DNA of 31,900 bases from a virus. Of the stretch, positions 10,939-31,238 are shown piece by piece; position 1 is the stretch's first letter, and every line of letters starts with the position of its first letter. Both the position numbers and the translations under genes were made by a program. The notes beneath the pieces are model-generated. The model was not told where the DNA came from and did not search any database. It saw nothing but the letters and a program-made list of their open reading frames with translations. The stretch covers positions 1 to 31,900 of the IMG/VR virus record IMGVR_UViG_3300042390_000128, one strand, 5' to 3'.

Positions 10939-11139
10939 ATGAAATGTCCCTCCTGCAACTGCATATTTGCCGCAAGCCTCCGCGATCTCGCGAAGGAGTT
11001 AGGAGCATCCAAATCAACGGCAAAAGCCTCCGCATCCCGAGCAAACGGAAAGCGTGGAGGTAGACCGAAAACCTATGAAAAACGAACTAATACCGAGTCA
11101 GAAACAGTCCGCGCTGGCCGTAATGGCGAGCAAATTTAG
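10939..11139 (+). CDS. Small Cys-containing basic protein
   Basis: A 66-residue protein beginning MKCPSCNCIFAASLRDLAKE. Cys at residues 3, 6 and 8 (C-x-x-C-x-C) might bind zinc. A predicted helix-turn-helix-like segment, LRDLAKELGASKSTAKASAS, is followed by the basic tail ANGKRGGRPKTYEKR, a type of GKRGGRPK ending I have seen in small phage DNA-binding proteins. It ends 64 bases inside the recombinase gene in a different frame, so translation may be coupled. It could be an early regulator. An upstream in-frame non-ATG start exists at 10924 but would overlap the promoter. Confidence 0.5.
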   Translation: MKCPSCNCIFAASLRDLAKELGASKSTAKASASRANGKRGGRPKTYEKRTNTESETVRAGRNGEQI

Positions 11140-11758
11140 CGTTGAGCCAGCCAAGCTTTTAGAGACGCTAAGGGCTACGTTGATGCCCAAAGCAACCAAC
11201 GAGGAGATGCTCTCGTTTGTCGTCGTTGCCAACCAGTACGGCTTGAACCCGTTTACCCGCGAAATCTACGCTTTTCCCGCTCGCAACGGCGGTATTCAGC
11301 CAGTGGTCAGCGTCGATGGTTGGATCAAAATGATGAACTCGCATCCGCAGTTTGACGGCATCGAGTTCAAGACCGAGGACAAAGACGGCAAACCGTTTTC
11401 GGTCACCGCTACAATCCACCACAAAGAGCGGTCTCATCCGGTGGAGGTCACCGAATACTTTTCGGAGTGCAACCGATCAACCGAACCGTGGAAGGTGAAT
11501 CCCCGTCGAATGCTGCGCCACAAAGCTTTGATCCAATGCGCTCGCGTAGCGTTTGGATTCTCCGGCATCGTGGACGATGAGGAGGTTGTCCCTCAGGTGC
11601 AAGTCAACGTCACGCCGTCTCGTCCAATTTTCCGCTCAAAACTGGAGCCGAAGGTTGAGATCCAGCCTAACGAGTACCTCCCCGAGAATAACCCAATCCC
11701 CACCGCTACGGTCCAACCCACTGAAGCCATCTTGCACGAAGGGAAGTCTAATGAATGA
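11075..11758 (+). CDS. bet: Single-strand annealing protein, Bet/RecT family
   Basis: A 227-residue homologue of Red-beta type annealing proteins, which coat single-stranded DNA and anneal complementary strands. The family core is clear: LLETLRATLMPKATNEEMLS, then VVVANQYGLNPFTREIYAFP and GIQPVVSVDGWIKMMN within residues about 28-100, with ECNRSTEPWKVNPRRMLRHK towards the end of the domain. The C-terminal tail (about 175-227) is Pro-rich and probably flexible. I start it at ATG 11075; a GTG at 11054 would add seven residues. It overlaps the exonuclease gene by eight bases, the classic pairing of annealing protein and exonuclease. Expected to act in recombination-dependent replication or repair. 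Confidence 0.88.
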   Translation: MKNELIPSQKQSALAVMASKFSVEPAKLLETLRATLMPKATNEEMLSFVVVANQYGLNPFTREIYAFPARNGGIQPVVSVDGWIKMMNSHPQFDGIEFKTEDKDGKPFSVTATIHHKERSHPVEVTEYFSECNRSTEPWKVNPRRMLRHKALIQCARVAFGFSGIVDDEEVVPQVQVNVTPSRPIFRSKLEPKVEIQPNEYLPENNPIPTATVQPTEAILHEGKSNE

Positions 11759-12866
11759 CGAGCGTAATGGTCTACCGAGCGCATCAGCAGCCAGCCGGTA
11801 CGCAAGTTGTCTCGGCAGTTGGCAGTTGGAAAAAGCGATCTTAGAGACCGAGTCCACTGCTGACGCAGCGACCGGCAACCGCATCCATGCCGCTCTGGGG
11901 CTGGAGCCGGTGACGGATCTCACTACAGACGAGACCTACATTATCGACCGTTGCCGCGAGCAGGAAGCGGAACTAGTGAAACAAGTGTTCGCGAACTCGA
12001 TCGAGGAGCCGCAAGTGTTCCGCGAGAAGCGGCTGTGGAGCCTTCAAAACTACGGTCTCGGTCAAGAAGACAAGCGGCTCTGGTCCGGCAAACCAGATGT
12101 TGTCTATGTCGAGGGCAACAACGCTCTAATCATCGACTACAAGAGCGGCAGGGGAACAGTCGAGAACGCAGCGGAAAACCTCCAGTTGCGCTGCTTGGTC
12201 GCTCTGCTGCATGAGTCTTTCGGATTCACGCTGGAAGAAATCACGGTTGCTATCGTCCAACCTCTAGCTGGACCTCCGAGCGTAGCCTCCTACGAGTTAG
12301 GCGACCTGATGGATGCGGTGCGGGAGTCGCAGTCGCTGATGAGCGCGATCATGCAACCGGACCAACCGCGCACTCCATCAGAGTCCGCTTGTAAGTATTG
12401 TAAGGGGAAACCCTATTGCTCCGAAGCTCGCGAACTGGCGGTCACCGGACCACTCGCAAACGCTCCAGAAGGCATCACGCCGGACGCGATTGCTGCGACC
12501 CTAACATCCATCCATCTGGCGCAATTCCTCGACAGAGCGGCTCAAGCGGAGGCAGTAATCGAAGCTTGTAAGTCAGAAGCTCGACGCAGACTGAGTGAGG
12601 GAGAAACCATCGAAGGCTGGACGCTCAAAGATGGATCTGTCCGCGAGTCTATTACGAACTCTGAGCAAGTGGCTTCACGCTTCCTAGAGTTGGGAACTTA
12701 CGAGCAGCTAAGTTCCGCGATCACGCTCAACAAGACCAAGTTAAAAGACGCAGTCAAACTCGCGACTGGCTTTAAGGGCCAGCAACTCAACGCAAAACTT
12801 GATGCTCTCCTCGACGGATGCACCGAGTCCAAAATGTCCCAACCAATACTTACACGAATCAAATGA
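11751..12866 (+). CDS. RecB/Cas4-like PD-(D/E)XK exonuclease
   Basis: A 371-residue nuclease. Catalytic motifs: H46 in TGNRIHAAL, D116 in GKPDVVYV, and D129-x-K131 in IIDYKSG, with Q145 in NLQLR, which is the PD-(D/E)XK order. Cysteines C20, C214, C217 and C223 (the last three in CKYCKGKPYC) match the four-Cys iron-sulphur arrangement of Cas4 and AddB-type nucleases. The C-terminal 130 residues are helical and resemble a DUF2800-like extension. It should process DNA ends to feed the annealing protein upstream. The ATG overlaps the stop of that gene; an earlier in-frame start at 11553 lies deep within it and is a shadow. A four-base overlap leads to the MazG-like gene. Confidence 0.85.
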   Translation: MNDERNGLPSASAASRYASCLGSWQLEKAILETESTADAATGNRIHAALGLEPVTDLTTDETYIIDRCREQEAELVKQVFANSIEEPQVFREKRLWSLQNYGLGQEDKRLWSGKPDVVYVEGNNALIIDYKSGRGTVENAAENLQLRCLVALLHESFGFTLEEITVAIVQPLAGPPSVASYELGDLMDAVRESQSLMSAIMQPDQPRTPSESACKYCKGKPYCSEARELAVTGPLANAPEGITPDAIAATLTSIHLAQFLDRAAQAEAVIEACKSEARRRLSEGETIEGWTLKDGSVRESITNSEQVASRFLELGTYEQLSSAITLNKTKLKDAVKLATGFKGQQLNAKLDALLDGCTESKMSQPILTRIK

Positions 12867-13297
12867 ATCAAACCCATCCAATGGAGCTAGTGCGCGAGTT
12901 CATGAAAACGTACCAGCAACTTGTCCCGCAGCGTCCGATCCTCCCTGATCCGGTGACGCAAAATCTACGATACCGACTCATCGACGAGGAGGCTCAGGAG
13001 TTAGCCGCAGCTACCAACCCGAAAGAGTATCTGGACGCTGTTGGGGATCTTCTCTACGTCGTCTACGGAGCCGCGCTGGCCGCTGGCTTCTCCCCGCATC
13101 AAGTGGACGCTGCGTTCTGCGAGATCCACCGATCCAATATGTCCAAAGTCTGGACTGACGACGAGATTGACTCCATCCCTGCTGACTGCCGGTCAACTCG
13201 CGTTGGCGACAACCGTCACATTGTACGGAGGTCTGACGGTAAGATTGCGAAATCCCCAAGCTACTCCCCCGCTCGACTGGAGAGCTACACGCGATGA
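12863..13297 (+). CDS. MazG-like nucleotide pyrophosphohydrolase
   Basis: A 144-residue all-helical protein with the metal-binding signature of the MazG/PRA-PH superfamily: E42-E43-x-x-E46 in LIDEEAQELAAA and D58/D62 in DAVGDLLYVVYG. Such enzymes hydrolyse (d)NTPs to monophosphates; phage copies are thought to clear non-canonical nucleotides or alter the nucleotide and alarmone pool. The length suits a single-domain member with a 55-residue basic C-terminal tail (about residues 100-144). It starts on ATG overlapping the exonuclease stop and its stop overlaps the next ATG. Confidence 0.8.
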   Translation: MNQTHPMELVREFMKTYQQLVPQRPILPDPVTQNLRYRLIDEEAQELAAATNPKEYLDAVGDLLYVVYGAALAAGFSPHQVDAAFCEIHRSNMSKVWTDDEIDSIPADCRSTRVGDNRHIVRRSDGKIAKSPSYSPARLESYTR

Positions 13298-13623
13298 GAC
13301 ATCTATGGGCGCGTGGATTTGGACGGCTCCACAGTGACGCTGAAATCATAACCACAGACGACGGAAAACAGTTTTTGATCGCAGTTATCGAGTTTGAGAA
13401 ACGCACGTTGGGCAACGGCAAACCCTACGCTCAACGAGTGCAGTTTCGCTCGTTTGATCCCGACGATATGGACGCTGTACTCCTTCTCACCGAGGGGACT
13501 CACGTTCTGTTCGATGGGGACTGCGATGCGGTAGCGGATAAATCATCGACCGGCTGGTGGTACGCTAATCCTCGGATCACCGGACGCATCAGCGAAATCA
13601 TTCCCTCTGGACATGAATCTTAG
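13294..13623 (+). CDS. OB-fold, SSB-like protein
   Basis: A 109-residue protein whose pattern fits a single-stranded-DNA-binding OB-fold: a first strand ending GRLHSDAEIITTDDGK, a second strand FLIAVIEFEKR, then YAQRVQFRSFD, GTHVLFDGDCDAVA and a closing strand ITGRISEI. This order (G-R-L with a DGK turn, then V-x-x-E, then a DG-x turn and a final G-x-I) resembles SSB-type proteins. It lacks the acidic C-terminal tip of a canonical SSB. Sitting between MazG and RusA in the recombination cluster, it probably binds DNA intermediates. A second SSB-like gene lies at 22785. Confidence 0.55.
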   Translation: MRHLWARGFGRLHSDAEIITTDDGKQFLIAVIEFEKRTLGNGKPYAQRVQFRSFDPDDMDAVLLLTEGTHVLFDGDCDAVADKSSTGWWYANPRITGRISEIIPSGHES

Positions 13624-14035
13624 CTTTTTTGCAGCCGGAATCCCAAAGGCTCAACCTCGGGTAAAAGCCTATGTGCGCGGAGGTCACGCTGGAGTTTACA
13701 CGCCGGACGGAGCCGAGACTTGGAAGCAGGAGGTTAGGCGGCAAGCCGTCGCCAACGCTCCAGAATCGATTATAGCGGGAGTTGTTCGTATCCAGCTAGA
13801 CTTTTTCCTGCCGAGACCAAAGGTGCATCTGGACAAGCACGGTGTACCGAAGCCGAAATCACCAGTCTGGTGCCAGAAAAAGCCGGATCTGGATAACCTG
13901 ATTAAAGCCGTCACCGATGCGATCACTGACACTCAGCGAGTCTGGCTGGACGACAGTCAGATTTGCTTCATTTCAGCGACCAAATCCTACGCACTCGATG
14001 CCGTTGGTTGCAGCGTGAGAATCTCGGCTGATTAG
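13613..14035 (+). CDS. rusA: RusA-family Holliday junction resolvase
   Basis: A 140-residue protein with the RusA signature: an N-terminal strand FFAAGIPKAQPRVK, then D92-x-D94-N95-x-x-K98 in KPDLDNLIKAVTDAI, and W111-L-D113-D114 in VWLDDSQI. In RusA the acidic residues bind metal and cut four-way junctions. The length matches the family (about 120-140). It overlaps the OB-fold gene by 11 bases. It is the last gene of the recombination cluster, and is followed by a structured non-coding gap. Confidence 0.88.
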   Translation: MNLSFFAAGIPKAQPRVKAYVRGGHAGVYTPDGAETWKQEVRRQAVANAPESIIAGVVRIQLDFFLPRPKVHLDKHGVPKPKSPVWCQKKPDLDNLIKAVTDAITDTQRVWLDDSQICFISATKSYALDAVGCSVRISAD

Positions 14036-15757: not shown

Positions 15758-16041
15758 GCGATCATATTCCTGACCCCACGAAAATGATCAGCGATACACC
15801 GAGGACGGATGCTGCTGAGTATGAATCGCAAGACGAGCCAGTGGCAAAACTTGGTTCTGTAGATGTAGACCTCGCTCGACAACTCGAACGCGAACTCAAC
15901 GTAGCCAATGAGCGCATCAAGCGGCTGGAGCGTGAGATCGAACTCTTCCGTGAGCACGTTGACTACGGAGATGTGTGTCTAGTAGAAGCTATTCTTAAAG
16001 GAGAAGAGATAGGAAGAAAAGAAAAGGAGGCCAAGCCGTGA
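15754..16041 (+). CDS. Array protein, SDTPRTD/coiled-coil type
   Basis: A 95-residue protein carrying SDTPRTDAA (about residues 14-22), then VDLARQLERELNVANERIKR as a coiled-coil helix, and ending RKEKEAKP. SDTPRTDA followed by an E-R-E-L-N helix is a pattern I associate with phage and prophage small proteins of unknown role. A second copy is at 17867 and a degenerate one at 23096. It starts with ATG overlapping the previous stop and ends in the AAGGAGGCCAAGCCGTGA junction repeat. An in-frame upstream ORF from 15670 lies within the previous gene and is a shadow. Confidence 0.6.
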   Translation: MSDHIPDPTKMISDTPRTDAAEYESQDEPVAKLGSVDVDLARQLERELNVANERIKRLEREIELFREHVDYGDVCLVEAILKGEEIGRKEKEAKP

Positions 16042-16328
16042 GCGACACAAACAACATGAGCAACGCAACACTTATCAAATGGAACGACGCAAAACCAAAC
16101 GCTGAGTTTCTGAGGATCCGCTCAGACGGATCGTTTGAAATCCAGAAAGGCGCACCAACTCTGTTTGTGCTGGGTGAATTGGTTCACGCATTCCTGAAGC
16201 AGCAGGACCGCATCCGTCGGCTGGAGGAGGCGGGAGATAAGATGGAGGCATGGCTGCGCGATGAGCGGTTGGATGCAGTGCAGCACACTGTTTCAAAATG
16301 GAACAAAGCCAAGGAGGACAAACCGTGA
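16038..16328 (+). CDS. Array protein, AGD-M-W/coiled-coil type
   Basis: A 96-residue protein starting on GTG. Residues about 60-96, DRIRRLEEAGDKMEAWLRDE then VQHTVSKWNKAKE, match three other array proteins (16519, 17329, 17574): a basic coiled-coil end, A/T-G-[DN]-x-[ML], an aromatic residue and a final W-x-x-AK. The N-terminal half (FLRIRSDGSFEIQKGAPTLF) is probably a small beta domain. Ribosome site AAGGAGG lies in the previous gene's last codons. Function unknown. Confidence 0.6.
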   Translation: MSDTNNMSNATLIKWNDAKPNAEFLRIRSDGSFEIQKGAPTLFVLGELVHAFLKQQDRIRRLEEAGDKMEAWLRDERLDAVQHTVSKWNKAKEDKP

Positions 16329-16522
16329 GCATCACAATCAAATCGTGGATCATGCCAGCACTCATCACCGTAATCCTGCTGTGCATTATGTTCAGGCCAT
16401 ACCGTTCCAGCGGGCAGTATGACTTTGGACAGATCTTTCGGCTGTTTTGGCTGATACCGATCGGAGCCGTTTGGATGGTTTACATGGGTGTACTTCTAGT
16501 CATCAAGGAGGCCAAGCCGTGA
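16325..16522 (+). CDS. Array membrane protein, two spans
   Basis: A 65-residue protein with two predicted membrane spans: IMPALITVILLCIMF (about residues 9-23) and FWLIPIGAVWMVYMGVLLVI (about 41-60), separated by a polar loop (RPYRSSGQYDFGQ). It ends IKEAKP, the shared array terminus. I start at GTG 16325, which overlaps the previous stop and follows AAGGAGG. The function is unknown; its array neighbours are mostly soluble coiled-coil proteins. Confidence 0.55.
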   Translation: MSITIKSWIMPALITVILLCIMFRPYRSSGQYDFGQIFRLFWLIPIGAVWMVYMGVLLVIKEAKP

Positions 16523-16758
16523 CAAATCAAAACAGCAAAAGCCTTTTCGATCAATTGGTCGAAGCTCAAAAGCGAATCATTGAGCTGGAAAACGAAGTGA
16601 ACATGAAGCACACGCATCATGTTGTTGTAAAACTTAAGAACGAACTGAACCAAGCAAACGACAGAATCAAAACGCTCACGGCAGCAGGAGACATCATGGA
16701 GCCGTACGCTACTGAACAATCCGCTAAACTGTGGGCAAAAGCAAAGGAGACGAAATGA
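16519..16758 (+). CDS. Array protein, coiled-coil AGD-M type
   Basis: A 79-residue protein, mostly coiled coil (SLFDQLVEAQKRIIELENEV, then LKNELNQANDRIKTLTAAGD-IMEPY), followed by W-AKAKETK. The C-terminal block repeats that of 16038 and 17329. GTG start overlapping the previous stop (CCGTGA); preceded by an exact junction repeat at 16505-16522. No enzymatic motif. Confidence 0.55.
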   Translation: MTNQNSKSLFDQLVEAQKRIIELENEVNMKHTHHVVVKLKNELNQANDRIKTLTAAGDIMEPYATEQSAKLWAKAKETK

Positions 16759-17150
16759 CAAAACAAGAAGTGCTGAACGCTGCAAACGTGATGATTGCAT
16801 ACGCAAACGGAAAGAAGGTCGGAACTCGACCTACAAGATCAATGGAACCGTTGTTGGAAATTCTGTACGTCCCAACATGGAATTGGGAACAGAAGGAATA
16901 CTTCGTGATTCCTGACGATTGTTCCAAAGAACTGGAAAACGATGATCAATCCAAAGCGCACAAACTTACAGAAGAAGAACAACGAATCCTTTTCCTAGCG
17001 GAGTCTCCCGATTGCAACCATCCACGCGAACTCCGCGCAATCGCCTTTCAGGTGCGAAAACTGGAGGATCGGATCAAGCAACTCGAATCCGAGAACGATG
17101 CACTCCGCGCTGATCTGTTGCTGTGGGAGGAGAAGGAGGCCAAGCCGTGA
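16755..17150 (+). CDS. Array protein, RELRAIA coiled-coil type (long)
   Basis: A 131-residue protein. Its last third, RELRAIAFQVRKLEDRIKQL, then ESENDALRADLLLW, is repeated almost intact in the shorter gene at 18435. The first two thirds (VLNAANVMIAYANGKKVGTR and MEPLLEILYVPTWNWEQKEY) form a different domain, so the C-terminal coiled-coil module appears to have been joined to a new head. It ends EKEAKP, and the junction repeat (17133-17150) provides the next ribosome site. Confidence 0.6.
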   Translation: MTKQEVLNAANVMIAYANGKKVGTRPTRSMEPLLEILYVPTWNWEQKEYFVIPDDCSKELENDDQSKAHKLTEEEQRILFLAESPDCNHPRELRAIAFQVRKLEDRIKQLESENDALRADLLLWEEKEAKP

Positions 17151-17332
17151 GCCAAGTTTTACAATCAGCCTACTACGGATTGTCAGCCGGTTGTTTAATG
17201 TTTTTAGCCATGATTTGCGGTCAGCATCTTGGCAAGAGCCGTATGCGCGAAGAAGCGGTAAGGAAAGGCCACGCTGAGTGGGTGGTCGATTGCGCTGGTA
17301 AAAATCAATTCAAATGGAAGGAGTGCAAATGA
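17147..17332 (+). CDS. Array protein, single membrane span
   Basis: A 61-residue protein with one hydrophobic segment (YYGLSAGCLMFLAMICGQHL, about residues 9-28), then a basic helix and the block EEAVRKGHAEWVVDCAGKNQ-FKWKE. A membrane anchor followed by an A-x-[KE]-x-G-x-AEWVVD segment is a type I have seen in small phage inner-membrane proteins of unknown role. GTG start overlaps the previous stop. Its own last codons carry GGAAGGAG for the next gene. Confidence 0.55.
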   Translation: MSQVLQSAYYGLSAGCLMFLAMICGQHLGKSRMREEAVRKGHAEWVVDCAGKNQFKWKECK

Positions 17333-17577
17333 GCGACTACACAATACCAACGTCGAATACGGTGACTACAATCGACCCACAGGCCACAAAGATCCGCGAG
17401 CTTCAATCCGATGTGAACGAGCTGAAGGAGCTGGTCGAATACCTGCAAGACCGGATCAAGCTGATGAATAGTACTGGTGACGAGCTGCTTGAGTGGCTGA
17501 AGGACGGTACCATTTCCGACTCAAACTATCGGTTGCTGGCCAACGCATGGCAGCGAGCAAAGGAGAACAAGCAATGA
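17329..17577 (+). CDS. Array protein, coiled-coil AGD-W type
   Basis: An 82-residue protein with a coiled coil (TKIRELQSDVNELKELVEYL, about residues 21-40) leading into QDRIKLMNSTGDELLEWLKD and then LLANAWQRAKENKQ, the module shared with 16038 and 16519. I choose ATG 17329; the ATG at 17314 contains the ribosome site GGAAGGAG itself and so is unlikely to be used. Confidence 0.55.
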   Translation: MSDYTIPTSNTVTTIDPQATKIRELQSDVNELKELVEYLQDRIKLMNSTGDELLEWLKDGTISDSNYRLLANAWQRAKENKQ

Positions 17578-17870
17578 ACCCCGAACACGAAGCGCACGAA
17601 CGCTTGTGCAAATCCATCGGAGCAATGGCGAAAGAGAACGAAGATCTTAAGCAGCACGTCACCCAACTCGAAAACCGTCTCCGCGCTCTGTGGGACAAGC
17701 TCGAAGGGGAGAGGAAGTTCTACGATCAGCGCATCCGAGAACTCGAAATAGCTGGCAACGCAATGTACGCATTCATCAACCCTCCATCTCCGAGCATGAG
17801 GACCATCCGAATGGACAACCTGTTGCAAGGATGGGACGACGCTAAGATTGGGAAGGAGGTGAAGCCGTGA
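17574..17870 (+). CDS. Array protein, long coiled coil
   Basis: A 98-residue, largely coiled-coil protein (AMAKENEDLKQHVTQLENRL, then LWDKLEGERKFYDQRIRELE). It continues into IAGNAMYAFINPPSPSMRTI and LLQGWDDAK, a diverged copy of the AGD-M-W-AK module. It ends KEVKP on AAGGAGGTGAAGCCGTGA, a close variant of the junction repeat. The ATG follows AAAGGAGAACAAGC within the previous gene. Confidence 0.55.
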   Translation: MNPEHEAHERLCKSIGAMAKENEDLKQHVTQLENRLRALWDKLEGERKFYDQRIRELEIAGNAMYAFINPPSPSMRTIRMDNLLQGWDDAKIGKEVKP

Positions 17871-18232
17871 GCGATACACCGAGGACTGATCAGATGGAGC
17901 AGCACGCATACTGGTTCGACGACGACATGACTCCAGTGTGCGAGTCGAGGTTTGTCCGCCAACTTGAACGCGAACTCAACGCAGCCAACGCACAGGTTGA
18001 TCGTCTGACCGCAAAAGTCGCGCAACTCTACGAAGGAGCAGAGGAAGCGAAGCAGCGCATCAAGCGGTTGGAGGAGGCTGTTGAGGCATACCGAACAGCA
18101 TACACGCCAGACGGTCATGTCGCCCCGCACGACTGCTTTGCGACAGGTCCAAAGACCGGCAATCCAATTGAGGATCTTGTCGCGTGTCCCGGTTGTTGGG
18201 CAGAGCGGAAAGCCAAGGAGGCCAAGCTGTGA
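17867..18232 (+). CDS. Array protein, SDTPRTD/coiled-coil type, paralog
   Basis: A 121-residue paralog of the gene at 15754: it begins SDTPRTDQMEQHAYW, has the helix FVRQLERELNAANAQVDRL, and a second helix EAKQRIKRLEEAVEAY. The C-terminus (DCFATGPKTGNPIEDLVACP-GCWAERK) adds a possible metal-binding pair with C-x-x-C in ACPGCW. It ends KAKEAKL on a one-base variant of the junction repeat (18215-18232), followed by the GTG of the next gene. Confidence 0.58.
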   Translation: MSDTPRTDQMEQHAYWFDDDMTPVCESRFVRQLERELNAANAQVDRLTAKVAQLYEGAEEAKQRIKRLEEAVEAYRTAYTPDGHVAPHDCFATGPKTGNPIEDLVACPGCWAERKAKEAKL

Positions 18233-18438
18233 TTGCGGACTTTGAACCGGGAGAACAGTCGTCCCACTGCGACATCATCTGTCCGCATTGCGGATGGAAC
18301 CGACAAGCAGAACCTTGCGATGGAGACGCATCAGAAGATCCGTCAGAGCATGAGTGCGACGAGTGCGGGAAACCATTCATTCTCTACGCATCCATCAGTA
18401 TCACCTACCACACCAAAGCCAAGGAGGCCAAGCCGTGA
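18229..18438 (+). CDS. Array zinc-ribbon-like protein
   Basis: A 69-residue protein with two Cys pairs, C-x-x-C in IICPHCGWN and C-x-x-C in HECDECGKPF, spaced as in a zinc ribbon. Between them is an acidic linker, EPCDGDASEDPSEHE. The second half of the ribbon reads like the KPF-x-x-x-x knuckle of zinc ribbons. GTG start overlapping the previous stop; ends KAKEAKP on an exact copy of the junction repeat (18421-18438). Small zinc ribbons often bind nucleic acid or the transcription machinery; the partner is unknown. Confidence 0.58.
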   Translation: MIADFEPGEQSSHCDIICPHCGWNRQAEPCDGDASEDPSEHECDECGKPFILYASISITYHTKAKEAKP

Positions 18439-18611
18439 GCATTGAAGATCGAATCCTAGATTTTGTTAGTCAGGTTGGCTGGTTTGGTGGACGAGAACTC
18501 CGCGCAATCGCCCTCGATGTCCGCAAGCTGGAGGATCGGGTGAAGCAACTGGAGGAGGAGAACGACGCAATGCGAGCGGATCTGCTGCTGTGGAGGGATG
18601 CAAAACCGTGA
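18435..18611 (+). CDS. Array protein, RELRAIA coiled-coil type (short)
   Basis: A 58-residue paralog of the last third of the 16755 protein: GRELRAIALDVRKLEDRVKQ, then LEEENDAMRADLLLW, differing at only a few positions. Only about 15 different residues precede the module, so this is almost a bare coiled-coil unit. It ends RDAKP with a degenerate junction (GCAAAACCGTGA) that lacks the AAGGAGG core. Confidence 0.58.
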   Translation: MSIEDRILDFVSQVGWFGGRELRAIALDVRKLEDRVKQLEEENDAMRADLLLWRDAKP

Positions 18612-23753: not shown

Positions 23754-23857
23754 TGCGCTACAGTATAACAGATTGTTTTATGCTACTAAGTATGACGCTT
23801 TGCCTACCTAATGCAATAATGTTAGGAGGCTCCCAAGTATGTCTAATACGCAGGTGA
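23753..23857 (+). CDS. Tiny hydrophobic ORF, uncertain
   Basis: A 34-residue ORF, MRYSITDCFMLLSMTLCLPN then AIMLGGSQVCLIRR, hydrophobic in the middle. Its ATG shares the previous stop (TAATG). Overlapping it, an ORF at 23839-23922 (27 residues) has a good AGGAGG site at 23824. Only one, or neither, may be real. There is no family evidence. Confidence 0.25.
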   Translation: MRYSITDCFMLLSMTLCLPNAIMLGGSQVCLIRR

Positions 23858-23876
23858 TCGCGCGGGACCGATCATC
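23853..23876 (+). other. Stem-loop before the terminase operon
   Basis: GGTGATCG (23853-23860) pairs with CGATCATC (23869-23876): eight pairs, one of them G-T, around the 8-base loop CGCGGGAC. It ends 36 bases before the ATG at 23913, in a gap with no strong gene. There is no T tract, so it is not a classical terminator; it might be a leader structure or protein-binding site controlling the packaging genes. Confidence 0.4.
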
Positions 23877-23912: not shown

Positions 23913-24125
23913 ATGTCACTAGCTACCGACTACCTACTCCTTAATATTGGACACTCAACCCTGAAGTGGCATTTGGACCGCATCAAAAGCGGATCGTTCA
24001 CCATCGACCAAGTCGCGGTGTTCTATTGTCCCGATCCCAAAAAATCGGTTTACAAAACCGTTACCCGAGGTCTTGAGGAACTAATCAAGATGAAGCCCGA
24101 GAACCTCCCGATCCAATTGCGATGA
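23913..24125 (+). CDS. Small hypothetical protein before small terminase
   Basis: A 70-residue protein, MSLATDYLLLNIGHSTLKWH then LDRIKSGSFTIDQVAVFYCP. It appears alpha-beta with a central VAVFYC strand and ends in a helix rich in Lys and Glu (LEELIKMKPENLPIQLR). ATG 23913 is chosen because the upstream in-frame TTG at 23877 sits at the edge of the stem-loop. It overlaps the small terminase gene by four bases. Not recognised. Confidence 0.5.
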   Translation: MSLATDYLLLNIGHSTLKWHLDRIKSGSFTIDQVAVFYCPDPKKSVYKTVTRGLEELIKMKPENLPIQLR

Positions 24126-24760
24126 CTCAAACCGAGTACGTTAAGCACAGCGGTTTAACCAAAGGAAGAGTCTCTCAGCTAACCGCAGCAGGGATGCCGC
24201 TGACCTCCCCCGAAGAAGCGGACGCTTGGAGAGGATCGCGCAAAGGAATTGGCGGCAGACCATCAACCCTGCAACGGATGACTGCGATCCAGCAGCAACC
24301 AGCATCAGAACTCGCAGGAGGCCCATACAGACCTCCTGAAGCGTCAGCGGCAATCAACGCTACTCTAGCAACAGAAGACTCCCCGCAGGGAGCGTATGAG
24401 CGACAGAAGAAGATTGAGCGAGCCGCTTACGATCTAGCGGTTGAAGCGTTGCAGTCTCGGTCCCTCGATGCTGGCAGGATGGTCTCGGTACACGCTACCG
24501 CAGCAAAGAATCTCATATCAAGCCGCGATGATGTACTGGCTCAGTCTGAGAAGGAGCGAACGCTGGTATCCGGTGCTTGGGTTAAGAAGGCAATGCAGGA
24601 ACACGATGGAGCAGTGTCCCAACTGCTGAAGTCGATGCCGAAACAGTTATCCGGTCGCATTGCTCCGCATGATCCCGAACACGCAGAGCGCGAGCTAGAG
24701 CGTTGGGTCCAAGAAGTATGTCTCAAAACTCTGCACCAGACTGACCCGTGGAAATCTTAA
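24122..24760 (+). CDS. terS: Small terminase subunit (Nu1-like)
   Basis: A 212-residue protein. The N-terminus (TQTEYVKHSGLTKGRVSQLT, then AAGMPLTSPEEADAWRGSRK) is a winged helix-turn-helix of the kind seen in lambda Nu1-type small terminases and excisionase-like HTHs, where it binds the packaging site. A Pro/Ala linker follows, and then a long helical region (about residues 90-160, QGAYERQKKIERAAYDLAVE). The charged C-terminus (about 175-212) would contact the large subunit. It lies two genes upstream of the large terminase. Role by fold and position. Confidence 0.68.
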   Translation: MTQTEYVKHSGLTKGRVSQLTAAGMPLTSPEEADAWRGSRKGIGGRPSTLQRMTAIQQQPASELAGGPYRPPEASAAINATLATEDSPQGAYERQKKIERAAYDLAVEALQSRSLDAGRMVSVHATAAKNLISSRDDVLAQSEKERTLVSGAWVKKAMQEHDGAVSQLLKSMPKQLSGRIAPHDPEHAERELERWVQEVCLKTLHQTDPWKS

Positions 24761-25230
24761 ACTGCCAGAAGCCAGCGGGAATAGAATCGCTTCGCCAGAA
24801 CCGAATCGCGATAAAAGCAATCGAGCGTCAAACTGGCTTGGAGTTCCTGTCGATATCAGACCAAGAGCCTTCCCGCATTGATGGCTTCATCTTCGATCCG
24901 TTCAAAGGGATCATCACAGGAATCTATGAGGTCAAGACTCGTAGCTATGGCTTACACAAGCTACAGACCACATTTGGAAACGAATGGATGATTTCGTGGT
25001 CTAAAATCCAAGCGGCTCTGGAAGTCACCAGACGCACTAAGCTCCCGTTCTACGGAGTGCTGCATCTGCTGGATGACAACATTGTTATGATGGTTGAGAT
25101 CTTTAACCGCAATGCGTCTTGGGCTGCAAACCATAAGGTGGAAGACCGTCTGGTTAACGGTATCAAAGACCGAATGGCGTTAATCAATATGGCTACCGCT
25201 ATGCAATATAAGATGAACCAACTATTCTGA
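24748..25230 (+). CDS. PD-(D/E)XK nuclease-like protein
   Basis: A 160-residue protein with a restriction-type nuclease core: SRIDGFIFDPFKGIITGIYE followed by VKTR, giving D45 (or D50), E60-x-K62 and a following strand (LHKLQTTFGNEWMISWSKIQ). I read D-(n)-E-V-K as the metal-binding triad. It has a compact single-domain size. GTG 24748 is used, overlapping the small terminase by 13 bases, and its end overlaps the large terminase ATG by one base. Nucleases inserted between terminase genes might assist packaging or resolve DNA branches, or be an independent insertion. Confidence 0.6.
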   Translation: MEILNCQKPAGIESLRQNRIAIKAIERQTGLEFLSISDQEPSRIDGFIFDPFKGIITGIYEVKTRSYGLHKLQTTFGNEWMISWSKIQAALEVTRRTKLPFYGVLHLLDDNIVMMVEIFNRNASWAANHKVEDRLVNGIKDRMALINMATAMQYKMNQLF

Positions 25231-27080
25231 TGACAGATCTTGAGCTAGAGATCCTAGAGTTCCGCCGACAACTCTGGCGACCGACTCCACGGCAATCTGT
25301 TGTCGAGTGGGCTGAGACTAATCTGACTCTAAGCCAACGACAGACCGAGCATCCCGGTCCTTTTAGCACAGCAGTTAGACCATATTGCAGGGAGCCGCTA
25401 GAATCTTGGAAAGATCCTGCGGTCTCCGAGGTTACTCTGTGTTGGGGAAGTCAGACCAGTAAGACTACGACGCTGATGGCTGGTCTCGCTTGGTCCATCG
25501 ATGTAGAGCCGTCTCCTGCGTTGTGGCTTATGCCGAGTGAGAACTTAGCGCGGTCTTTCTCTAAGAGTCGATGGCTCCCAATGCTAGAAGACTCTCCTGC
25601 TATGGTCGCGCGGTTCCCTACGGATAAAGACCAGATCACCAATCTGGAGCAGCAATTCGACCGCTGTACTCTGACGTTTGTTGGGAGCAACTCACCGGCA
25701 AACTTAGCGTCTCGTCCCGTCAGAATCCTAGTGGCAGATGAGGTGGACAAGTTTGCTGATGCTACGGCTAAAGAAGCTGACGCTCTGGATCTTGCCGAGC
25801 AGCGGCTCAAAGCGTTTAGTAGCTCTAAAGCGTTTTTCACTTCGACTCCGACAACCTCCGAGGGACGAATCTGGCAGAGATATCTGCGAGGAGACCAGCG
25901 TAGGTATTACATCCCGTGTCCGTACTGCCGCGAGCATATCAAGCTGGAGTGGCGACAAGTCACTTGGGAAAACGAGAAGCTTGAGGATGGACGACCCGAC
26001 TGGCAACGCATCCGTACTACCGCCCACTACGTCTGCCAACTCTGTCAGGGGAAGATATCTGACAGCCAGAAGGTCGCAGGGTTACGGCATGGCAAGTGGA
26101 TCTCCGAAAATAAAGCCAGCCTCCCAAGTGTAAGATCTTATCACTTGTCGTCTCTGTACTCGCCAGACCGCAAATGTACTTGGGGAAATCTTGCCGTCGC
26201 GTTCCTTGAAGCAAAATCCTCGATGATGGGATTGCAGGGTTTTATTAACGGGATGTTGGCAGAACCGTGGGAAAATCAAGAGACTCAACAGGACAGAGTC
26301 GAGATTGTGTCTGATGCTGGCATCCCTGAAGCCAGACGCTATCTAACCGCTGACGTACAAGCTGCGGCTCCTTTTTTGTGGTGGGTCTGCCGAGAATGGA
26401 GCAAAGGCAACTCGCGTCTCGTTGGAGCCGGTCACGCTGATGATTTTGCCGCTCTCCGTAGGATACAACTCCAATACAACGTCCACGATATGGATGTTGG
26501 CGTCGATTCCGGTTACAACACGCAAGCGGTGTACGATGCTTGCGCTGAGTTCTCGCAGAGCAGCGGAAGCCCAATAAACTATCCCTGCGGTCTGCGGTAT
26601 CCGCCAGAGGGAGGTCTGCGAAAGCCAATGCTGATTGGCTGGCTACCGATGAAAGGACGCGAGACCGGAGCTAGATTTACCAGCAAGACCGGCTCAATCC
26701 ATCCCTTTGGAATTACAACCTCAACCTCAATGCGTACGGACGCTGTACAACCGTTGTTGGTTTTCGATACCGAGCATATGCGGGAGGTGCTCCAGCGGCT
26801 CCGTAAAGGAACCGAGACGCATCAATGGAGTGTTTGTAGCCTACCCGCTCCGCTAGACGCTGAGGGAGCCTTTGCGAGCGATTCTGATACCTACTGGAAG
26901 CATCTGGACAGCCATCTTCTTAAGCCAACAGCCAACCGCTCCGGTAGGATTAAGCACTTATGGTTCAAGCGAAACACTCGTTGGCCTGACCATTTGCACG
27001 ACTGTGAAATCATGCAACTTGCTATGGTTATGTTGTGGGGAGACCTAACTTCTAGTACCTCGGAAAATTCTAGTGGTTGA
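25230..27080 (+). CDS. terL: Large terminase subunit, GpA family
   Basis: A 616-residue packaging motor of the lambda GpA family. It begins PTPRQSVVEWAETNLTLSQR, typical of GpA-like terminases. ATPase: Walker A-like GSQTSKT at 73-79 and Walker B ILVADEVDKF (about 166-175, D170/E171), with FFTSTPTTSEG as the coupling motif. Zinc-binding Cys pairs CPYC (230-233) and CQLC (269-272) lie in the middle. The C-terminal nuclease contains GVDSGYNTQAVYD and IMQLAMVMLW. It cuts concatemers and pumps DNA into the prohead. Length matches lambda gpA (about 640). Confidence 0.93.
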   Translation: MTDLELEILEFRRQLWRPTPRQSVVEWAETNLTLSQRQTEHPGPFSTAVRPYCREPLESWKDPAVSEVTLCWGSQTSKTTTLMAGLAWSIDVEPSPALWLMPSENLARSFSKSRWLPMLEDSPAMVARFPTDKDQITNLEQQFDRCTLTFVGSNSPANLASRPVRILVADEVDKFADATAKEADALDLAEQRLKAFSSSKAFFTSTPTTSEGRIWQRYLRGDQRRYYIPCPYCREHIKLEWRQVTWENEKLEDGRPDWQRIRTTAHYVCQLCQGKISDSQKVAGLRHGKWISENKASLPSVRSYHLSSLYSPDRKCTWGNLAVAFLEAKSSMMGLQGFINGMLAEPWENQETQQDRVEIVSDAGIPEARRYLTADVQAAAPFLWWVCREWSKGNSRLVGAGHADDFAALRRIQLQYNVHDMDVGVDSGYNTQAVYDACAEFSQSSGSPINYPCGLRYPPEGGLRKPMLIGWLPMKGRETGARFTSKTGSIHPFGITTSTSMRTDAVQPLLVFDTEHMREVLQRLRKGTETHQWSVCSLPAPLDAEGAFASDSDTYWKHLDSHLLKPTANRSGRIKHLWFKRNTRWPDHLHDCEIMQLAMVMLWGDLTSSTSENSSG

Positions 27081-27112: not shown

Positions 27113-27514
27113 GTGTTCACTTACACGGTAGCAACAAAACGGAGTTACTTGCGTACCACATACGCGAGCAAAGCCGCTTTAACGCTGCTTGAGGCTTTAA
27201 CTGCAAAGCTGACTGTTTCCGCTAACTCGATGGAGAGCGGGAATGTGGTCCGCAGCACTTCTAGCTCTGACGTTTCCGTTGAGTTCGCTGAACCCGGTAA
27301 AGGTACAGCCGCTCCAATCGAGATGCTGCAAATGTGGGAGTCTCTGCTAACCGATTACGATTACGCTGTAACGCTTCTTTCTGGTGATGGGATCGCTAGT
27401 CCCACCGATCTCCAGATTTACAACAAGATGCTGACCGCCGTTCTGGTTTCAACCACTCGGTATTATGGGGATTTCACGCAATTCCGCCGTGAAGCCACAA
27501 CCCGAATGAGCTAA
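27113..27514 (+). CDS. gpW-position head completion protein
   Basis: A 133-residue protein between large terminase and portal, the place of gpW (head completion) in lambda. Its N-terminus (VFTYTVATKRSYLRTTYASK) is polar, and the rest is mixed helix and strand (APIEMLQMWESLLTDYDYAV). It is longer than gpW (68 residues) and I see no diagnostic motif, so it may be a different connector or head-joining protein. Starts on GTG; ends with one base shared with the portal ATG. Confidence 0.45.
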   Translation: MFTYTVATKRSYLRTTYASKAALTLLEALTAKLTVSANSMESGNVVRSTSSSDVSVEFAEPGKGTAAPIEMLQMWESLLTDYDYAVTLLSGDGIASPTDLQIYNKMLTAVLVSTTRYYGDFTQFRREATTRMS

Positions 27515-29082
27515 TGGGCTTTCTTCAAAACATAGCGAACAAGCTGTTCCCCGCTCCCGTTAACAAATACGAAGGAGCCGGTCAGTCATTGCGTCGTTCG
27601 TATCTCGATACGTCTTACACTTCCGCGCGGTTTGATGTTACCAGTTCGACTCGTCAAGCCATCGTTCGCAAGTCTCGCTTTTTTGAGCAAAACAACGCTG
27701 TTCTCAATAGGCTTGGTGATCTGTTTGAGAGCTACACTGTCGGCTCCAGCTTCTCGGTTCAACCAGCCTCCAGCGATTCCGCTTGGAACTTAAAGGCAAA
27801 GAAGTGGTTTGATGTCTGGAGCCGTTATCCCGATATCGGTTCTCGGCAGTCGTTCTCTACTTTGATGGGGCAAGCCGCTCGCGGTTGGTTCTACGATGGT
27901 GAGTCCTTCCTGTTGTTGACGAAAGGTGACACCGGCAAACCTCGATTGCAGCTTATTGAGGCTCAATCCATTGCTACTCCAGTAGGGATGCAATCAGATG
28001 AGACCGTATTTGACGGTATCCGGTTTGATCCTCGTACCGGACGAGCCATCTCCTACTTTATTGGATCGGAAAAGACTCAGGGTAACCTGACTGATGTTCG
28101 CTCCATTTCTTCTGACTCGGTTGTTCATATCTACGAACCGAATCGTCCCGGTCAGCTTAGAGGTCTTCCCTTTGTCTCCGCAGTTATCAATGATCTCCAC
28201 GATCTCGATGATTTGCAAAAGCTGGAGATGGAAGCTTGCAAGCTTGGCGCGTCTGTCGCTCAGATTGTTAAGACTGACGCTGGCGAAGTCCAAGCAAGCA
28301 ATCTCCGCGCTGGTACTGCTGGAGCGAGCGTAAACACCGCCGAGAACTATTACGAACAGGTCTTTGGATCTGGCGTGAAGGTAATGAAAAACGGCGACAG
28401 TTTCGAGCAGTTTGCAACCGAGCGTCCCGGCGTCAATATGCGGGAGTACTGGCGACAACTGACTGAGAAAGTCTGTGCTGGCGTTGGTATCCCTTACGTT
28501 CTGGTTTACCCAGAGTCAATGCAGGGGACTGTTTATCGCGGTGCGCTAGATATGTCGTCTGTATGGTTCCGTTCTCGCCATCAAGTCATGGCATCAGCGG
28601 CTCGTCGTATTTACGAGTACGCGATGGAGTACGCGATTAAGAACGATCCTACGCTCAATGACGCTCCCTCGGATTGGTACGAAGTATCAATTACCGCTCC
28701 GCGCTCCCCGAATGTTGACGTTGGCCGTAATTCTGCGGCTCAATTGGCAGAACTAGAGGCTGGCGTTGTTACCTTTGACGAGGTTTACGGTGCGCGTGGT
28801 CTTGATTGGCGTTCTGCTTTAGAGTCAAAAGCTCAACAAGCTTTGTTTGTACGTCAACTCGCTGCGAAGTATGGCGTTGATGTGTCTGAGATTTCGGTGA
28901 TTCAGAAAGAACGTCCCGCAACTAGTGTTGCAACTGCTATTGACATTGAAGGCGATCCTTCTGAATCTCCGTCTCCAGTCGCTCCGTCAGAAGGTGGGTC
29001 GCAACCTGTTGTTGTAGAGCAGGAAGAGATTACCGCTACCGTCAAGAAGACTCGGAAACCAAAAGCCAAGAAAACCGAATGA
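27514..29082 (+). CDS. Portal protein, lambda type
   Basis: A 522-residue portal. Characteristic stretches: ENNAVLNRLGDLFESYTVG-like sequence (EQNNAVLNRLGDLFESYTVG), VVHIYEPNRPGQLRGLPFVS (about residues 210-230), and GVGIPYVLVYPESMQGTVYR near 325-345, the pattern of lambda gpB-type portals. The last 50 residues are acidic-basic and disordered (PSESPSPVAPSEGGSQPVVV). The dodecameric ring it forms is the DNA entry channel and docks the terminase. The gene follows the terminase and overlaps the protease-capsid gene by four bases. Confidence 0.92.
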   Translation: MGFLQNIANKLFPAPVNKYEGAGQSLRRSYLDTSYTSARFDVTSSTRQAIVRKSRFFEQNNAVLNRLGDLFESYTVGSSFSVQPASSDSAWNLKAKKWFDVWSRYPDIGSRQSFSTLMGQAARGWFYDGESFLLLTKGDTGKPRLQLIEAQSIATPVGMQSDETVFDGIRFDPRTGRAISYFIGSEKTQGNLTDVRSISSDSVVHIYEPNRPGQLRGLPFVSAVINDLHDLDDLQKLEMEACKLGASVAQIVKTDAGEVQASNLRAGTAGASVNTAENYYEQVFGSGVKVMKNGDSFEQFATERPGVNMREYWRQLTEKVCAGVGIPYVLVYPESMQGTVYRGALDMSSVWFRSRHQVMASAARRIYEYAMEYAIKNDPTLNDAPSDWYEVSITAPRSPNVDVGRNSAAQLAELEAGVVTFDEVYGARGLDWRSALESKAQQALFVRQLAAKYGVDVSEISVIQKERPATSVATAIDIEGDPSESPSPVAPSEGGSQPVVVEQEEITATVKKTRKPKAKKTE

Positions 29083-31238
29083 GTTTTACAAAGAAGTCAG
29101 ATTGGCTTTACTACGCACCGGCAAACGCTGCCGGTGATCCTGCTACCGTTCAAATCTTTGATCAGATTGGCGAAGACTGGTACGGCGGTTCCGGTCTATC
29201 TGCAAAACAGTTTTCCGATGTTCTCAACGAGATTGGCAACGGTCCGCTGCTCGTAGAGATCAACTCTCCCGGTGGTAATGTCTGGGATGGTCTCAGCATT
29301 TACAACCAGTTGCGCGGTCGCAAAGCTCCGGTAACCACTCGCGTTGTGGGTATCGCTGCTTCTATCGCGTCAATTATCGCTCTTGCCGGTGATCGCGTAG
29401 AGATGGCTGACGCTGCTCTGATGATGATCCACGACCCATCAGGGATGGCTTCTGGTACTTCCGAGGATATGCGGAAGATGGCTGAGGCTTTGGATCAACA
29501 CGCTCAAGTGTTGGTTGGAGTGTATGCTAAAAAGACAGGACGCTCTCCCGAGTCTATCCGCGCTGCGATGAAAGCGGAAACTTGGTTTACTACCGCTGAA
29601 GCTCTGGCTTTTGGCTTGGTAGACAAACCCATCAAGCAGTTAGCGATGGCCGCGAAATGGCATCCTCGCGCTGTCACCAAGACGGCTCCTGAGACGGTCA
29701 AGAACAACCTCCGTCGAGGTCTTGAGCAATACGAGGAAGGTCTTGCTGGTGACGGTCTTGAACCCGCTACAGTAGCTGACGCTAAGTCGCTGATTTCTGG
29801 CGAAGCTCCTACCGCAGATAAGGTTGATAAAGCCTACAATTGGTGGGCGCGTAATGGCCGATTTCTTGAGGCTGAACCTAATACTCCTGCGGATGTAGCG
29901 GCAAACCTCTGGGGAGGTGCTGCTGGACGCGATTGGTTCAACGCTCTGTATGCTCAGATTGAGCGTCAAGAAGAGCAAGAAGACGAATCCCTAGACGACA
30001 AGCTTTCTGCTAATAGCAACACAGCTAACAGCAAAAATGGCGTGGACTCCACGCCGCAACCAACACAACAACCCGACACAAATATGTCCGATTCCACTAC
30101 TGTGACGGCTGCGGCTGCTCCTGCCGCTTCCGTTGATCTCGCTACTATCATGGCAAAGCTTTCCGCTTTGGAGGCTTCCATTAAGTCGCCCACCGCCGCT
30201 CCTGCTCCTGATCCGGTTCGTCCCGTGATCGTGAACTTGGGTAACCCGCTGCTGGAGAAGCATAAGTCTCTCCGCGCTGGTGCAGAGCGTAAGAGTTTCC
30301 TCATTGAGAATCATGGTGAGTTGCTGCGTCAGTCCGCAATGATCGCTCCTCAGAACGCCAACACGTTCGCGGCTGGCTTGGTTGTCGATTATCTCGCTGA
30401 TGCGGTTATCACTGTTGCTACCACTAAGCTCGCGATGATCGCTGGCTTTACGCGCAACGTTGGCTTGGATAACTTGCGTCCCCGCGCTACCGTTCAGGTC
30501 AAAAAGTTCACCACTGGTGATGCGACTGTTGATAACGCTACCAACTTTGAAGATGGCGCGGCTAACCAGTCCACGCTGGCTGCTACCTCGGTGACTGTTA
30601 ATCAGATCACCAAGAGTTTTACCGTCACTCAGCAGGAGTTGAATCAGGGTTTTGCTATCAGTGACTTGGCTCAGGGTTCCGCTGAGATCTTTGCTCTTGG
30701 TATTAGCAAGAAGGTCACGGCTCAGATGACTGCCGCGCTGTTTGGTGCTGGTACTGTCATTGGTACTGCTGCCAACTTTGATTCTAGCGATCTTCCCGCG
30801 ATCTTGGCTCTGGCTAAGAATTACCGCCAGAAGTTGCTGCTGCTGGACGGTGGACACTTGGCCCGTTTGATGTTCTCCGGTCAGCTCACAGCCGCCGCTG
30901 GAACCAACCCGTTCCCTGACAGCCGATACGGCCCGTTGAACAACGGCTATTTTGGATTCGCCAACATATTGGAGCAGAACGATTACACTGGTGCTATTGC
31001 TAATACTGCTGGCTTCGTCTGCGGTCAGGACGCTATCGCGATTGCGAGCGGCTTGCCGGTTGGAATGATCGCTGGCGAGTTCGTTGAGCAGCGCACTGTT
31101 GAGTTGAGCAATGGTCTGTCTGTGTTGCTCTCTGTGTGGTATTCCCGCTCTACCCGCGCTCATATGGCTTCTTACGATATCATGTTTGGTGCGGCTGCTG
31201 CGGATACTACGCAAGCTGAGGTTCTGATCACCGCTTAA
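29079..31238 (+). CDS. Prohead protease fused to major capsid protein
   Basis: A 719-residue fusion. Residues about 25-190 are a ClpP/S49-type protease: SPGGNVWDG, then GIAASIASII with catalytic Ser95 and MMIHDP with His118. Residues about 205-310 carry a WWARNGRFLEAEP-type domain, then a low-complexity linker (about 310-375, with PQPTQQPDTNMSDSTT) that may serve as scaffold or cleavage region. Residues about 380-719 resemble a major capsid protein (VQVKKFTTGDATVDNATNFE through QRTVELSNGLSVLLSVWYSR). The protease would process or release the capsid protein during head assembly. Overlaps the portal gene by four bases. Confidence 0.85.
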   Translation: MSFTKKSDWLYYAPANAAGDPATVQIFDQIGEDWYGGSGLSAKQFSDVLNEIGNGPLLVEINSPGGNVWDGLSIYNQLRGRKAPVTTRVVGIAASIASIIALAGDRVEMADAALMMIHDPSGMASGTSEDMRKMAEALDQHAQVLVGVYAKKTGRSPESIRAAMKAETWFTTAEALAFGLVDKPIKQLAMAAKWHPRAVTKTAPETVKNNLRRGLEQYEEGLAGDGLEPATVADAKSLISGEAPTADKVDKAYNWWARNGRFLEAEPNTPADVAANLWGGAAGRDWFNALYAQIERQEEQEDESLDDKLSANSNTANSKNGVDSTPQPTQQPDTNMSDSTTVTAAAAPAASVDLATIMAKLSALEASIKSPTAAPAPDPVRPVIVNLGNPLLEKHKSLRAGAERKSFLIENHGELLRQSAMIAPQNANTFAAGLVVDYLADAVITVATTKLAMIAGFTRNVGLDNLRPRATVQVKKFTTGDATVDNATNFEDGAANQSTLAATSVTVNQITKSFTVTQQELNQGFAISDLAQGSAEIFALGISKKVTAQMTAALFGAGTVIGTAANFDSSDLPAILALAKNYRQKLLLLDGGHLARLMFSGQLTAAAGTNPFPDSRYGPLNNGYFGFANILEQNDYTGAIANTAGFVCGQDAIAIASGLPVGMIAGEFVEQRTVELSNGLSVLLSVWYSRSTRAHMASYDIMFGAAAADTTQAEVLITA
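30084..30086 (+). promoter_or_regulatory. Internal in-frame start of capsid part
   Basis: An ATG at codon 336 of the fusion, in frame. It is preceded by a G-poor, CA-rich stretch (CAACACAACAACCCGACACA, then AAT) that looks like the leaders before the tail tube (4286) and tail protein (7262). A start here would give a 384-residue protein beginning MSDSTTVT, roughly the size of a lone major capsid protein. Confidence 0.45.

Follow-up and report, generated by a model that had tools for sequence, protein, structure and literature searches.

Small nuclease genes have been described beside the terminase genes and cos of HK97-type phages, where they encode HNH proteins. According to one paper (PMC10448857), from which our details on the HK97 type come, it is still argued whether these proteins are packaging partners or domesticated homing genes, and both readings can hold together for terminase-side nucleases. 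T4 endonuclease VII (gp49) is a packaging-tied resolvase that frees branched DNA on which the motor has stalled (PMC10893049).

The locus studied here, from a freshwater phage, encodes a probable DNA-cutting enzyme between both DNA-packaging genes. It lies in a window of 31,900 nt, the whole stretch of DNA that was analyzed. Compared with the HK97-type loci, it likewise has a small nuclease gene by terminase genes and an apparent cos, but the predicted fold is unrelated to HNH, the large terminase subunit (TerL) is of the gpA type, and the gene lies between the small subunit (TerS) and TerL. T4 endonuclease VII may be a functional parallel, as a phage nuclease clearing branches in packaging, although its fold is unrelated to that of PD-(D/E)XK nucleases and its gene lies outside the terminase operon. 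The archaeal Hjc resolvases appear to share the single-domain PD-(D/E)XK fold of our model, but their sequence kinship with the phage nuclease is undetectable and we know of no terminase link for them. Our literature search returned nothing on a PD-(D/E)XK gene in the TerS-TerL position.

A first-pass annotation made from the sequence had placed a PD-(D/E)XK-like gene between terS and terL, overlapping both, and its coordinates, start and overlaps check out (Table 1). The overlap is 13 nt with TerS on the 5' side and 1 nt with TerL on the 3' side (TGATG). The phrog_57 match of TerS is weak and partial, covering residues 1-41 only, and the 82-aa ORF upstream of it has no Pfam or PHROG match. 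Two other parts of the window were recorded in passing. A ClpP-type protease domain (PF00574, 8e-33) lies inside one 719-aa ORF at 29079-31238, which by position and length is probably also the major capsid protein. At 16038-18611 there is a run of short ORFs with coiled-coil-like sequences that are similar by eye, and this run may represent repeated gene duplication.

Table 1. Features of the terminase region (window coordinates)
Feature	Position	Strand	Basis or remark
Inferred cos site, terminal 14-nt repeat GGTGATCGCGCGGG	23853..23866	.	Recurrent contig ends in relatives
Small ORF, 82 aa	23877..24125	+	Between cos and TerS; similar ORF there in relatives such as L013
Terminase small subunit (TerS)	24122..24760	+	phrog_57 'terminase small subunit' 2.2e-5; position
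PD-(D/E)XK-type nuclease (predicted), 160 aa	24748..25230	+	Complete ORF, GTG start; motif, homologues, model
Codon of D45 (motif RIDG)	24880..24882	+	Invariant in 58-row alignment
Codons of E61-V62-K63	24928..24936	+	E61, K63 invariant in 58-row alignment
Terminase large subunit (TerL), lambda gpA type	25230..27080	+	PF05876 (GpA_ATPase) 1.5e-63, PF20454 3.6e-13
Portal protein, lambda family	27514..29082	+	PF05136 5.3e-44

At least 156 relatives of the nuclease were found in IMG/VR, with the best 80 returned per search. The searches mainly used patterns containing its first residues at the TerS-TerL junction and may have overlooked homologues at other places in genomes. From the fetched loci, 88 distinct homologous proteins were picked that have EILNC at their start and are 141-189 aa long, and all 88 carry the R[ILV]DG...ExK core and a W[MI][IV]SW[SG]K motif. 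D45, E61, K63 and K86 are invariant in an alignment of 58 rows (57 different proteins). The motif had first been read as D...E60-x-K62; these residues are present and conserved, with E61 and K63 kept in every homologue aligned, but the numbering was one too low (D45, E61-V-K63). The homologues also conserve length, start and genomic place. Among nine representatives, dN/dS is 0.055-0.264 for the nuclease (28 of 36 pairs computable) and 0.027-0.091 for the first 840 nt of TerL (33 of 36 pairs). The nuclease is under purifying selection, and since the homologues also keep their length, start, place, core motifs and invariant residues, the motif is more than chance.

Family profiles gave little. 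The Pfam profile PF24579 PDDEXK_14, a putative phage PDDEXK endonuclease, matches weakly over the E-x-K stretch (E 0.041), with 14.6 bits against a curated cut-off of 25, so membership by score is not reached. Four of 14 nuclease homologues match this profile at E<=1, the best at 0.02. The profile search suggested by the first-pass annotation returned a weak PDDEXK_14 match and no firm family. PHROGs gave nothing useful for the nuclease, and the NCBIfam search with three nuclease proteins gave no match. Of three proteins run against PADLOC, two had no match and one matched DitB unconvincingly, over 46 residues at E 0.0039. No homologue was matched in cultured phages at E<=1, and none was confirmed in genome contigs. 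Solved structures searched by sequence with the family profile gave a best E of only 0.98. An HNH motif is absent among the listed Pfam or PHROG matches of the nuclease, and the fold differs too. Membership in Hjc was also considered on sequence and is unsupported: a search of the window record with the PF01870 profile was empty at E<=0.001, and hhalign against four Hjc sequences gave 1.9% probability with a shallow nuclease profile (Neff 1.6). Weak or absent family matches are what one might see if the product were not active as a nuclease, for example a DNA-binding protein retaining the fold. We regard this as very unlikely, since D45, E61 and K63 are invariant throughout the alignment.

Structure modelling was more informative. 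An earlier model from 14 sequences was poor (pLDDT 51.8). AlphaFold2 with the 58 rows gave one confident model (pLDDT 86.0, pTM 0.81); the other four of the five were poor (pLDDT 42.8-53.5). The confident model has the restriction-endonuclease (PD-(D/E)XK) core fold, with a helix, a central sheet that carries E-x-K on an inner strand, and a further helix and strand, and its top PDB rows are nucleases with the same fold. In VIA, residues 5-137 match SPARDA chains (Z 11.7, 124 residues, rmsd 2.8), and archaeal Hjc resolvases match with Z up to 10.6 over 110 residues of 120 at an rmsd of 2.8 Å. The latter match covers nearly the whole Hjc length, and on this one confident model the protein would have the Hjc fold. 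The homing enzyme I-Ssp6803I is also among the fold matches (Z 6.8). In BFVD, A0A6J5PGQ9, an uncharacterized protein of an uncultured Caudovirales phage that is likewise 160 aa long, has a similar fold over nearly the whole length (TM 0.85, 24% identity) and is probably a true relative. YTH-domain chains also appear in the Foldseek results, and chains of tRNA splicing endonuclease in those of VIA; we regard both as noise or as distant relatives in fold. Motif and modelled fold together support the PD-(D/E)XK-like identity given to this gene at first pass, and its product is a predicted nuclease of this type.

The distribution of the gene was examined in loci chosen independently of it, through a scan for a TerL Walker-motif pattern that gave at least 120 stretches, of which 118 loci were compared. 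Among the matches listed, 34 contigs have a TerL with 86% identity or more, a line drawn after the table was seen, and 32 of them carry the nuclease. The two without it are cut off, 135 and 62 nt before the start of TerL. Below 86% the nuclease is found in none of 84 loci among the matches listed; in seven of these the sequence upstream of TerL is shorter than 200 nt, too little for the nuclease to be seen. For both the locus comparison and the tree, the nuclease-bearing status of L056 and L049 was taken from an earlier result. The TerL tree is a quick tree with long branches flagged by the tool, made from 107 rows thinned to 60 after frames running off the contig or shorter than 480 aa were left out; 10 rows with too little upstream DNA were unlabelled. 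On this tree, the nuclease group needs one change, compared to an average of 7.6 for shuffled labels, and is split from the other rows by a branch with support 100. Two changes are needed for the HNH group, and L201, scored 'none', begins inside the apparent end of an HNH gene. Six cultured phages whose TerL is of the gpA type were examined, and in none of them does an annotated nuclease gene immediately precede TerL. In genome contigs, only two distant TerL homologues were found. Conservation in the same place, a point that the first-pass annotation had left to relatives, is therefore seen in the close ones.

Outside this clade the slot varies. Four sister contigs with TerL 73-74% identical (L200, L207, L243, L270) are without the nuclease. 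In L207, L243 and L270 TerS lies directly on TerL and the slot is empty. The L200 slot holds a ParB_N-like gene and a second gene, and that of L195 holds ParB_N and a TET-associated glycosyltransferase (TAGT), with similar genes by eye in L252 and L262 (sister loci, TerL 73-78%). The slot of L271 has a gene resembling by eye the PAPS-reductase-like protein of L151. TAGT was seen directly before TerL in two nuclease-less loci, L195:11225-12794 (-) and L227:1505-2305. Among the matches listed, 25 of the 84 loci with TerL below 86% have an HNH gene whose end meets the TerL start, and 8 more have one further upstream. This HNH-bearing clade is more distant (TerL about 35-52%), and the HNH offsets were extrapolated from the TerL match. 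The HNH genes were located by a motif pattern and two were confirmed with PHROGs; Pfam gave nothing for one of these two proteins and a weak DUF968 match for the other. In L236 the order is TerS 559-1158, HNH 1226-1531 (match 4e-9) and TerL from 1528. The earlier suggestion that the enzyme might replace the HNH protein thus fits for position, since in another TerL clade this slot is taken by an HNH gene. The suggestion that the gene belongs to the packaging operon is weakened where function is meant, because the slot of near relatives is empty or holds unrelated genes and modification genes insert beside it.

These empty junctions are what an inserted gene would leave in its relatives, and the nuclease could be of the free-standing homing or boundary type, spreading as it cuts the DNA of relatives that lack it. 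The start sequence RTGGAAATC is common to nuclease-bearing and empty loci, as an insertion at the TerS-TerL junction would have it. Alleles have also been swapped on nearly unchanged flanks: in L056 TerL is 99% identical to the window and the nuclease 79%, with residues 1-58 identical, and in L084 the flanks have 88-90% nucleotide identity and the nuclease 67%. The locus therefore recombines, and I-Ssp6803I is among the fold matches as noted. According to a published survey (PMC10448857), homing-type genes are often near terminases, and the region upstream of HK97-type terminases is a hot spot for these nucleases. The distribution in our sample is not sporadic, however, but that of one clade (32 of 34, two misses truncated, one change on the TerL tree). 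The gene is also outside any intron, no separate DNA-binding domain was recognized in its product, and its stop-start coupling to TerL is tight. On balance, we consider homing doubtful, though worth keeping in view.

DNA-modification genes are found in the same region. Directly upstream of the nuclease, 117 distinct regions have TerS (84), a methyltransferase (29) or a truncated end (4). The methyltransferase was recognized by motif, and the two checked in Pfam are ParB_N + N6_N4_Mtase. This ParB_N-N6/N4 DNA methyltransferase fusion was seen between TerS and the nuclease at L066:851-2110 and L003:1026-2261. Upstream of TerS, L013 has QueC and a second gene, and L151 a PAPS-reductase-like gene. 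The L013 pair (276-1438), between the small ORF and TerS, consists of QueC beside a gene matching phrog_15826 and may be a 7-deazaguanine DNA modification cassette. The nuclease stop overlaps an ATG (TGATG or TAATG) in 115 of the 117 regions; the other two junctions read TAGTCA, and in L060 an ATG comes immediately after. As modification genes come and go around TerS and the nuclease, the nuclease is the constant member beside TerL.

With a methyltransferase directly upstream in 29 of 117 regions, the nuclease could be the restriction half of a restriction-modification pair. TerS takes that place in 84, however, and three nuclease proteins are found beside the methyltransferase in some regions and without it in others. 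The catalytic halves of the L003 and L066 methyltransferases also differ strongly. We therefore find this pairing highly improbable, and an obligate partnership is rejected by the neighboring genes examined, since the same nuclease stands with and without the methyltransferase. In a broader version, the nuclease would act against DNA of the host or of competing phages, with its gene lying in a region shared by DNA-modification genes. The ParB-N6/N4 methyltransferase, QueC, PAPS-reductase-like and TAGT glycosyltransferase genes around TerS in relatives suit this version. So does the best fold match, as SPARDA is a defence nuclease. The nuclease is constant in its clade while the modification genes vary, though, its gene overlaps the terminase genes, and PADLOC pointed convincingly to no defence system. 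We judge action against competitors to be unlikely.

The phage has other predicted nucleases. A recombination block at window positions 11054-14032 encodes RecT, a DUF2800/PDDEXK_1 exonuclease-like protein and the resolvase RusA. RusA was present in all 17 nuclease-bearing long records searched and absent from all five nuclease-less records, which are distant or incomplete. The idea that the nuclease is the sole resolvase was dropped because RusA is also encoded. A second candidate, that it replaces a dead TerL nuclease, was rejected because TerL D375, D426 and D591, which we take to be the catalytic Asp residues, are invariant in 10 of 10 aligned sequences (the position of the first was set by eye, because it is off by two in the automatic alignment).

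The contig ends of relatives point to a cos-like terminus 0.9 kb upstream of the nuclease. Left contig ends were compared where they lie up to 4 kb from the nuclease. Of 119 distinct ones, 61 begin at GGTGATCGCGCGGG, give or take about 1 nt, and about 10 further ends start 3-20 nt inside it; the remaining ones lie elsewhere. When 25 records were searched with the region, 8 had both ends there, 6 had one end there, 9 ran through it, as the window itself does, and 2 were unmatched. Of the right ends of the 8 two-ended relatives, all of them long, 5 finish precisely on the final G of the 14-mer, 1 has an extra A, and 2 continue into sequence that is presumably adapter. An exact 14-nt terminal repeat is seen in 2 of the 8, and the rest differ by an added base, adapter or, in G002, a left end about 10 nt shorter. 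These ends fit 5' cohesive ends of about 14 nt that were filled in during library preparation, with the polarity being our reading. The pattern also fits what is expected for a lambda-like cos phage of which joined copies were sequenced as well. The window is nearly a whole genome, since its two ends lie about 160 nt apart in G002. The nuclease-less contigs L200, L270, L207 and L243 begin with GGTGAACGCGAGACC (with one extra T in L270); in L207 and L243 this start precedes TerL by about 0.9 kb. Nuclease-less and HNH-bearing relatives show recurrent ends of their own, namely GGTGAACGCGAGACC, GGTTCC..., AGGAGCCTGCGAC... and GGGGCCAAAGCAGACCGA. Because the four sisters begin at an equivalent terminus without the nuclease, it seems dispensable for cos cutting in them. 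A terminus appears to form without it where TerL is 73-74% identical, although another protein could substitute. This argues against the nuclease being a required cos cutter.

We tentatively favor an optional packaging-accessory role, in which a small PD-(D/E)XK endonuclease of a lambda-type cos phage would assist TerL with the DNA concatemer. It would be a non-homologous counterpart of the HNH proteins beside terminases, and would trim branches or nicked and irregular DNA that would stall the motor rather than cut cos. Nuclease activity, contact with TerL and the substrate are the predicted parts of this reading. The gene, its conserved active-site residues, its place, its single clade and the HNH gene in the slot of the other clade were observed directly. 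An accessory role is favored by the place and constancy of the gene, by HNH in the same slot elsewhere, by the Hjc-like fold and by an apparent indifference to the methylation gene. Since nuclease proteins occur with and without the methyltransferase, self-protection by methylation is seemingly unneeded, as would seem to be expected of a structure-selective or partner-dependent enzyme. Several points weigh on the other side. The fold comes from one confident model of five. RusA in nuclease-bearing records means that a second resolvase is not obviously needed, so branch resolution ahead of the motor, also proposed at first pass, agrees with the Hjc-like fold but less well with the gene content. 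Both the empty slots and the presence of RusA at another place in the genome make it less likely that the nuclease is necessary. DNA-modification genes in the same region of relatives make position alone no proof of a packaging role, and mosaic alleles such as that of L056 suit a homing or conflict gene as well.

More broadly, gpA-type cos phages may keep a slot for exchangeable nucleases at the TerS-TerL junction, which one clade fills with a PD-(D/E)XK enzyme and another with an HNH protein, and which others leave empty. Two unrelated folds would then have been recruited independently as packaging accessories, with nuclease-free sisters as natural controls; we put this wider picture forward as possible and with some reserve. 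Because a second, unrelated nuclease fold sits in the equivalent slot and sisters have it empty, the question of the HNH role can be tested by comparison. The apparent cos site obtained from metagenome contig ends provides a substrate for testing the role of such an accessory nuclease.
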